From the NCBI GenBank assembly GCA_902519445.1, contig CABYJR010000005.1, positions 1 through 34,377 on the forward strand: DNA of 34,377 nt, in the 5' to 3' direction. Within the stretch, counting starts at the first letter, position 1. Every line of letters begins with the position of its first letter. Below, piece by piece: positions 844-26,602 of the stretch. The notes beneath the pieces were generated by a model. The model was not told the DNA's origin. It saw only the letters and a program-made list of their open reading frames with translations, and searched no databases. The stretch comes from an uncultured Pelagibacteraceae bacterium. Lineage in GTDB: Bacteria > Pseudomonadota > Alphaproteobacteria > Pelagibacterales > Pelagibacteraceae. A program made the position numbers and the translations under genes.

Positions 844-871
844 CTTGAAATTTTTAAAAAAGCACCCATAT
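844..871 (+). promoter_or_regulatory. Sigma-32 (RpoH) type heat-shock promoter for the hsp20 gene
   Basis: CTTGAAA at 844-850 is an exact match to the sigma-32 -35 element. After a 13-base spacer, ACCCATAT at 864-871 matches 7 of 8 positions of the -10 consensus CCCCATNT. Transcription would start near 878, giving a leader of about 58 bases before the hsp20 ATG. It begins two bases after the stop codon of the upstream peptidase gene. The downstream gene is a classic RpoH target, so motif and context agree. Confidence 0.8.
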
Positions 872-877
872 AAACTT

Positions 878-935
878 TTGTAAGTTGCCATTGTGGGACT
901 TATATAAATTAACCTTGCTAACAATGGAGGTAAAT
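878..935 (+). promoter_or_regulatory. Candidate ROSE-like RNA thermometer in the hsp20 leader
   Basis: Two short hairpins can be drawn by eye. Hairpin 1 pairs 882-890 with 894-901 (AAGUU, G bulge, CCA / UGGGACUU). Hairpin 2 pairs 912-918 with 926-931 (ACCUU, G bulge, C / GGAGGU) and buries the whole Shine-Dalgarno GGAGG. The UUGCU at 915-919 facing the ribosome-binding site, with an unpaired G, is the signature of ROSE elements found upstream of small heat-shock genes in alpha- and gammaproteobacteria. The fold is hand-drawn and energies were not computed. Confidence 0.55.
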
Positions 936-1376
936 ATGACAAGTAAGGATTTATCAATCTTTAATTCTCTTAAACCTTTTAGCATTGGGTTCGACAGTAT
1001 GTTCGATCAGTTTGAATCAATGTTAGGTAATGGCGGAATGGTACAAAGTAACTATCCCCCTTACAACATCAGAAAGGCCGGTAAAGACAAGTATGCTATC
1101 GAAGTAGCGGTTGCTGGTTTTAATAAAGATGATGTTGAAGTTGAGTTTGAAGATAATTTTTTAACAGTTAGAACTAAAAAAATTGATAAAACTGTTGAAA
1201 AAGATGGTGATGAGATAATTCATAAAGGAATATCTCAAAGATCGTTTTCTAGATCATTTACTATTGCAGATGATGTAAAGGTAAATGGCGCTCAGTTAAA
1301 AGATGGTCTTTTGACAGTAACTTGTGAAAAAATCATACCAGAACAAAAGAAAAAAAAACTAATTCCAATTAGATAA
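936..1376 (+). CDS. ibpA: IbpA-like small heat-shock protein (Hsp20)
   Basis: An ATP-independent holdase that binds unfolding proteins in the cytoplasm. The N-terminal stretch FSIGFDSMFDQFE and the motif YPPYNI opening the alpha-crystallin domain are typical of IbpA-type proteins. AVAGFNKDDVEVEF, the beta-strand core, and a C-terminal I-x-I anchor (LIPIR) are all present. The track start at 885 (TTG) is rejected: the ATG at 936 has an ideal GGAGG five bases upstream and gives 146 residues, normal for the family. The gene is preceded by a sigma-32 promoter and a thermometer-like leader and followed by an intrinsic terminator, so it is probably a single-gene transcript induced by heat at both transcription and translation. 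Confidence 0.93.
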   Translation: MTSKDLSIFNSLKPFSIGFDSMFDQFESMLGNGGMVQSNYPPYNIRKAGKDKYAIEVAVAGFNKDDVEVEFEDNFLTVRTKKIDKTVEKDGDEIIHKGISQRSFSRSFTIADDVKVNGAQLKDGLLTVTCEKIIPEQKKKKLIPIR

Positions 1377-1388
1377 ATTGGAACCTTG

Positions 1389-1420
1389 CTTGCGGGAACT
1401 AAGGTTTCCGCAAGTATTTT
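1389..1420 (+). terminator. Rho-independent terminator of the hsp20 gene
   Basis: An 11-bp stem (CTTGCGGGAAC with GTTTCCGCAAG, one G-U pair) closes on the tetraloop TAAG and is followed by TATTTT. It lies 13 bases after the hsp20 stop and abuts the stop codon of the convergent lipoprotein gene, so it may also help end that transcript, although the T-tract on the minus side is poor. Confidence 0.85.
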
Positions 1421-25737: not shown

Positions 25738-26602
25738 GTTTGTCATGCAAAGTTTTGCCAATTTCTGCTGGCGACTCTGCTATAAAAATACCACTAGACT
25801 TCATTTTTTCTATTTTTTCTTCAGCGCCACCCTTTCCGCCTGATATAATTGCTCCTGCATGCCCCATTCTTCTGCCTGGAGGCGCAGTTTTTCCTGCAAT
25901 AAATCCAACTATAGGTTTTTTGGTTTTTGAGGATTTGATAAATTCTGCCGCTTCTTCTTCTGAAGATCCTCCTATTTCTCCTATTAATAAAATTGATTCT
26001 GTTTTTTTATCTTTTAAAAAAAGCTCTAAACAGTCTATAAAGCTTGTTCCAAAAATAGGATCACCTCCAATACCTATTACCGTTGATTGACCTAATCCAT
26101 TTTCACTTGTTTGTGCAACAGCCTCGTATGTAAGTGTTCCAGAACGAGAAACAATTCCACATGTACCTTTTTTGTGAATATTTCCAGGCATAATTCCAAT
26201 CTTACATTCATCTGGAGTAATAATTCCTGGACAATTTGGACCAATTAAACGAGATTTTGATTTAACTAATTTTTCTTTAACTTTAATCATATCTAAAACT
26301 GGAATTCCCTCTGTTATACAAACAATCAAAGGAATTTCGCTTTCGATTGCTTCGATTATTGCCGATGCTGCAAATTTGGCGGGTACATAAATCATTGTTG
26401 CATTTGCTTTAGTTTTTTTTACGGCCTCTTCGACTGTATTAAAAACAGGTCTGTCCAAATGAACTTGCCCTCCTTTTTTAGGGGTGACGCCTCCAACTAA
26501 ATTAGTTCCATAGGAAATAGCTTGTTCTGAATGAAAAGTTCCATGAGAACCTGTAAAACCCTGACAAATTACTCTCGTATTTTTATCGATCAAAACAGAC
26601 AT
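25727..26602 (-). CDS. sucD: Succinyl-CoA synthetase, alpha subunit
   Basis: 291 residues. CoA-binding N-terminal domain ([20 protein letters not shown]), [11 protein letters not shown], and the phosphorylated His248 in [17 protein letters not shown] identify the alpha subunit. [14 protein letters not shown] supplies the contact Glu. With SucC it forms ATP or GTP from succinyl-CoA. The spacing to sucC is one base, indicating coupling, and the standard length shows an intact gene. Confidence 0.97.

Follow-up and report, generated by a model that had tools for sequence, protein, structure and literature searches.

A sigma-32 promoter and a predicted ROSE-like leader before hsp20 of SAR11 bacteria, and matches of the same leader model before hsp20 of marine phages

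The region directly upstream of hsp20 in a marine alphaproteobacterium raises the question of whether a small heat-shock gene is controlled at two levels, by sigma-32 at transcription and by an RNA thermometer in the leader of its mRNA. The window, i.e. the whole stretch of 34,377 nucleotides analysed here, is contig C5 of a genome of 733 kb that is 64% complete. The preliminary description had named a SAR11-like host only as a condition. The nearest named relatives of the window's Hsp20, with up to 92% match, come from uncultured Pelagibacteraceae, and the host is thus SAR11. Elsewhere in the window, the Rfam family snoU54 matched positions 25766-25829 on the minus strand at 35.3 bits (cut-off 35); this match is almost certainly due to chance, snoU54 being a family of eukaryotic snoRNAs. 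The features of the hsp20 locus are given below, where R1 denotes a covariance model built from 66 SAR11 leaders with no phage included.

844..850, + strand: -35 element of the sigma-32 promoter, CTTGAAA, exact consensus, kept in 123 distinct related leaders
864..871, + strand: -10 element of the sigma-32 promoter, ACCCATAT, 13 bases 3' of the -35 element, a spacing shared by relatives
878..935, + strand: predicted 5' leader of about 58 bases, its start near 878 inferred from the promoter position; R1 match at 873-934 (59.2 bits, E 1.3e-9)
880..903, + strand: hairpin 1, GUAAGUUGCC-AUUGU-GGGACUUAU, with U886.G897, bulged G887, C888-G896 and C889-G895 (from fold and covariation)
912..931, + strand: hairpin 2, ROSE-like, with A912-U931, C913-G930, C914-G929, U915-A928, U916.G927, bulged G917 and C918-G926 (from fold and conservation)
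915..919, + strand: UUGCU, the ROSE motif (from sequence and conservation)
926..930, + strand: GGAGG, the Shine-Dalgarno sequence (from sequence)
936..1376, + strand: hsp20, small heat-shock protein of 146 aa, ATG at 936 (PF00011, E 1e-19)
942..948, + strand: AGUAAGG, codons 3-5, partner of 913-919 in an alternative fold (from fold and codon usage in relatives)
1387..1420, + strand: likely intrinsic terminator 3' of hsp20, CTTGCGG...CCGCAAG followed by a T-rich stretch (read from the sequence, unscored)

The promoter at 844-871 has the two elements of a sigma-32 promoter, CTTGAAA at -35 and CCCATNT at -10, at the correct spacing. The pattern CTTGAAA-N14-CCCATAT occurred once without mismatch in the window, whereas shuffled sequence would be expected to yield 0.05 sites even when one mismatch is allowed. 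The promoter was also recognisable in nearly all of the 123 distinct related leaders, of which 120 had exactly the same 13-base spacing. The same genome encodes RpoH (TIGR02392, 349 bits, over the cut-off), so the near-perfect sigma-32 promoter that had been described at first reading was borne out. Judging from the promoter sequence together with the presence of rpoH, RNA polymerase carrying RpoH would start transcription here when sigma-32 is active.

Folded alone, the leader (878-935) formed two hairpins, and GGAGG was paired from 5 to 42 C. In hairpin 2, CCUUGCU (913-919) pairs with the ribosome-binding site around the bulged G; its top pair in the window is a U.U mismatch (919/925), where nearly all relatives have U-A. 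The leader carries U(U/C)GCU in its 5' UTR, imperfectly paired with the Shine-Dalgarno sequence and with a predicted bulged G, as in the motif definition of ROSE-like thermometers (PMC11342760), and its two stem-loops in about 58 bases agree with the two to four stem-loops in about 60 bases or more used to define ROSE-like elements (PMC10474464). The energy of the fold was ordinary (z -0.37), which makes the single sequence weak evidence by itself, and energy was not used as proof. A long-range pairing of CCAUUGU (888-894) with ACAAUGG (921-927), seen by eye in the window, was dismissed as chance because relatives do not keep it.

Comparison with related leaders decided the matter, confirming that the promoter and the predicted ROSE-like leader are a real observation. 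Related genomes yielded 123 distinct leaders, 122 of which were parsed for the core of hairpin 2; the conservation counts score related sequences separately, and independent events are fewer. The U(U/C)GCU motif with its bulged-G helix was present in all 122 (UUGCU in 119, UCGCU in 3), as it is by sequence in the window. The core was nearly invariant, consisting of C-G, U-A, U.G (119) or C-G (3), the bulged G, C-G and U-A, and the outermost pair varied among C-G, A-U and U-A. Leaders that had lost the usual outer C-G always showed the inner U-A, so that the helix comprised six pairs in 117 and seven pairs in 5 of the 122 leaders. Hairpin 2 covaried little because both of its strands are nearly invariant. 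The compensatory changes that had been sought by aligning leaders were found abundantly in hairpin 1 instead: among 66 leaders, 99.2% of cells were paired, both-sided changes occurred at five of the nine pairs, and one position was represented by C-G, A-U, U-A and G-C alike. One relative (L014) lacked two facing bases together. Hairpin 1 also repeats the core of hairpin 2 (Y:G, bulged G, C-G), with a full UCGCU in genus g9. Two assertions of the preliminary description were thereby upheld, namely a leader of two hairpins, by the fold of 878-935 and the covarying hairpin 1, and a second hairpin that covers GGAGG and bears UUGCU with an unpaired G, by fold, by sequence and by its retention in the parsed leaders.

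The temperature response was less clear. Between 5 and 42 C the computed pairing of GGAGG barely changed and stayed largely intact, and the isolated hairpins were calculated to melt only above 50 C; computation thus does not support thermosensing at the temperatures of the organism. Since the computed melting points of the SAR11 hairpins fell outside the living temperature range, they were not used, and the energy model may be inadequate for the ROSE motif. Of the two-level heat control proposed at the outset, the promoter, the structure and the conservation stood, but melting at physiological temperature found no support in the computed folds. Such computed melting, together with the ordinary fold energy, would also suit a leader that serves mRNA stability or ribosome standby and resembles ROSE by chance, with heat control left to sigma-32 alone. 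We consider this very improbable, as neither an invariant U(U/C)GCU with a bulged G facing the Shine-Dalgarno sequence, in SAR11 and in phages, nor the constant number of pairs in hairpin 2 would be expected of a generic stabiliser.

As had been claimed, folding of the leader alone, or of the RNA as far as 945, left GGAGG closed at low temperature. When the RNA extended to 950 or beyond, however, CCUUGCU preferred codons 3-5 and left GGAGG in a loop, so that the claimed masking held for the shorter RNAs but not for the longer ones. This alternative fold would be expected of a bistable switch, in which CCUUGCU pairs with either the Shine-Dalgarno sequence or AGUAAGG, and translation depends on how the two folds are balanced. 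Codon usage is consistent with such a switch: codon 4 is AAG in 106 of 106 relatives of the MTSKD/MTGKD type, despite a preference of about 3:1 for AAA over AAG in the gene, and a relative with arginine in place of lysine 4 (L169) uses AGG, by which the pairing is retained. Yet the motif paired predominantly with the coding region in just 9-17% of relatives, several genera without AGUAAGG retain the ROSE helix, and no double compensatory change was seen, leaving the bistable switch improbable in our estimation.

We regard it as very probable that hsp20 is controlled at two levels, by sigma-32 transcription and by a ROSE-like thermometer leader. The mRNA would begin with the short two-hairpin ROSE-like element, in which hairpin 2 would mask the Shine-Dalgarno sequence through the pairing of CCUUGCU around the U.G pair and the bulged G, the two elements that make this helix weak. 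Warming would open hairpin 2 and allow the 30S subunit to bind. Hairpin 1, lying away from the Shine-Dalgarno sequence, would probably protect or insulate the 5' end or provide a binding platform.

Feedback by Hsp20 might form a third layer, because the leader-binding residues of IbpA are mostly conserved in SAR11 Hsp20. IbpA of Escherichia coli represses its own 5' UTR via Arg93, with Tyr34, Arg97 and Lys98 (PMC10474464). In the alignment, Arg93 and Tyr34 were conserved in 123 of 123 SAR11 Hsp20 proteins, and position 97 was Arg or Lys in all 123; Arg93 was also found in 60 of 63 and 13 of 15 phage Hsp20 proteins. The leader could accordingly be viewed mainly as an Hsp20 binding site, where free Hsp20 binds both hairpins and represses, unfolded proteins draw Hsp20 off, and temperature acts only via protein damage. 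This reading would explain why hairpin 1 has a specific core although it makes no Shine-Dalgarno contact, as well as the retention of the leader in phages. On the other hand, the basic residue at position 98 is not conserved: E. coli IbpA requires Lys98, and 115 of 123 SAR11 proteins carry Ser there. Arg93, moreover, is so general in alpha- and gammaproteobacterial IbpA that its presence is weak evidence. As the main function of the leader, Hsp20 binding appears to us a tentative and rather doubtful proposal. As a mechanism additional to thermosensing, with which it is compatible, Hsp20 feedback is plausible from the protein sequences.

How widely the element is distributed was assessed with R1, which matched as many as 218 of the 297 Pelagibacteraceae genomes; this number is slightly inflated by a few of the weakest matches, which are due to chance. 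The E-values of the covariance models are rough. Matches were found in 117 of the 127 near-complete genomes and in 12 of 14 genera. Within the window's genome, the hsp20 leader was the sole significant match (E 1.3e-9), followed by one at E 0.84. Weak matches elsewhere in SAR11 genomes (14-27 bits) were rejected, as none placed a ROSE core in front of a heat-shock gene. All eight of the Pelagibacteraceae genomes without a clear element that were checked lacked an Hsp20 match. SAR11 are among the most abundant cell lineages of the ocean and have few regulators; the putative layered heat switch is retained wherever hsp20 is retained.

Outside the family, hsp20 of the sister family f2 (L310-L316) has a different leader, whose upstream part is unlike that of SAR11 and to which the models gave weak scores of 12-13 bits. 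By eye, the f2 leaders contain AAUCGCUUAAGGAGGAUU, a UCGCU hairpin with a bulged G, and UCGCU facing AGGA. A second model, R2, matched the hsp20 leaders of other AT-rich alphaproteobacteria strongly (L281, L282 and L283; 44-52 bits) and the dnaK leaders of two further alphaproteobacteria weakly (L288:1501-1568, 26.2 bits; L291:1501-1563, 22.8 bits), the former having UCUUGCUU 5' of AAGGAGA.

The larger point of this analysis concerns phages. One pointer was the R1 match L160, located on a contig of 19 kb (G031:C13); a viral contig of 58 kb encodes an Hsp20 protein identical to the one on this contig. The 19 kb contig had been binned with a SAR11 genome of 8% contamination and is probably a phage sequence in the SAR11 bin. 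When R1 was applied to 74 loci, nearly all of them viral hsp20 loci, the best matches lay directly upstream of hsp20. In 337 kb from 72 mixed sources, a model built from SAR11 alone gave 70 matches at E <= 0.3, one per source and all in the hsp20 leader. These 70 SAR11 and phage leaders, when aligned, showed double changes at 10 of 15 pairs, with 148 doubly changed cells; shuffles gave 33 such cells and slid controls no more than 35. These counts lean towards the model because the alignment (A4) was fitted to it. A MAFFT alignment of SAR11 and phage leaders (A3) had broken hairpin 1 and was replaced by A4.

Among 17 named phage loci, R2 matched the hsp20 leader at E below 1e-4 in 14, including P-SSM3, P-TIM40, S-RIM4, HTVC008M and Pseudomonas phage PA5oct; the match was weak in phage Y7 (E 0.017), and none was obtained in HTVC103P or Vibrio phage PWH3a-P1. 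In HTVC103P, AUCGCUU facing AAGGAU can be seen by eye. The exact TATAAATA, a T4-type late promoter, was located within 130 bases upstream of 20 of 61 phage leaders versus 10 of 1214 control windows. The typical hairpin 1 was missing in 11 of the 54 phage leaders having hairpin 2. A ROSE-like leader of two hairpins, frequently downstream of TATAAATA, precedes hsp20 in marine T4-like and other phages, among them L181, L183, L221, L262, L263, L264, L296, L298, L300 and L308. In one further hsp20 leader behind TATAAATA (L016:1444-1502; weak R2 match, 21.8 bits), UGUCU replaces UUGCU opposite AGGAGG.

We are inclined to think, with some reservation, that one hsp20 RNA switch is common to SAR11, their phages, cyanophages and other marine myoviruses, with the promoter exchanged: where the host has sigma-32, many phages would have a late promoter of the T4 type. 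The T4-like cyanophages have hsp20 among their core genes (PMC3037559), and RNA thermometers or Hsp20-feedback switches would in that case be a regular feature of a cyanophage core gene. If true, the supply of phage Hsp20 during infection would be gated by temperature or protein damage. If the leaders are functional, the temperature dependence of marine phage infection could be tested directly via simple leader fusions. In the literature covered, which left out most subscription papers, we found no paper on a thermometer before phage hsp20.

Among known systems, the curated ROSE families did not include this leader, and Rfam as a whole gave no hit to it. The Rfam ROSE covariance models (release 15), which the preliminary description had proposed to run, gave no match at E <= 10 in the window leader and none in L081, and RF02523 (ROSE_3) had no match in the window's genome (G000) at E <= 1. 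By motif and architecture, the leader is a divergent ROSE-like member with a layout nearest to ROSE_3, the consensus of which likewise has two hairpins, GAUGCC...GGGUC and then ACUCGCU...AGGAGGU. ROSE_3 scored the related phage leader Melnitz-3 at 34.1 bits, under its gathering score of 43. The RF02523 matches in other alphaproteobacteria were mostly chance, with the exception of L268, a true hsp20 leader.

The ROSE-like thermometer of Providencia stuartii oppF, for which a crystal structure exists and whose Shine-Dalgarno stem alone confers about 8-fold heat induction (PMC11342760), resembles the SAR11 leader in having an upstream hairpin and a Shine-Dalgarno hairpin, in the imperfect pairing of U(U/C)GCU with the Shine-Dalgarno sequence, and in the adjacent U.G, bulged G and C-G seen in the crystal. 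In contrast, the SAR11 leader is AT-rich and shorter, controls hsp20 and repeats the ROSE core in its upstream hairpin, and its heat response is inferred whereas that of oppF was measured. Another candidate from SAR11 is a structured intergenic RNA of strain HIMB5, proposed as a 'possible RNA thermometer' by Stav et al. (2019) (PMC6429828), the main text of which does not name the gene; it may be the same hsp20 leader. The E. coli ibpA leader shares a sigma-32-type promoter (CTTGAAA...CCCATTT), an upstream hairpin and UCUCGCUG facing AGGAG, albeit in a longer leader that neither R1 nor R2 matched (ibpB was matched weakly, at 13.7 bits). Layered control of small heat-shock genes by sigma-32 and a thermometer has been described for proteobacteria (PMC10474464), and the combination of sigma-32 with ROSE, which E. 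coli ibpA has as well, is not new. What is new here is that a model derived from SAR11 leaders alone detects the same leader immediately upstream of hsp20 in marine phages, often with a T4-type late promoter in place of sigma-32.
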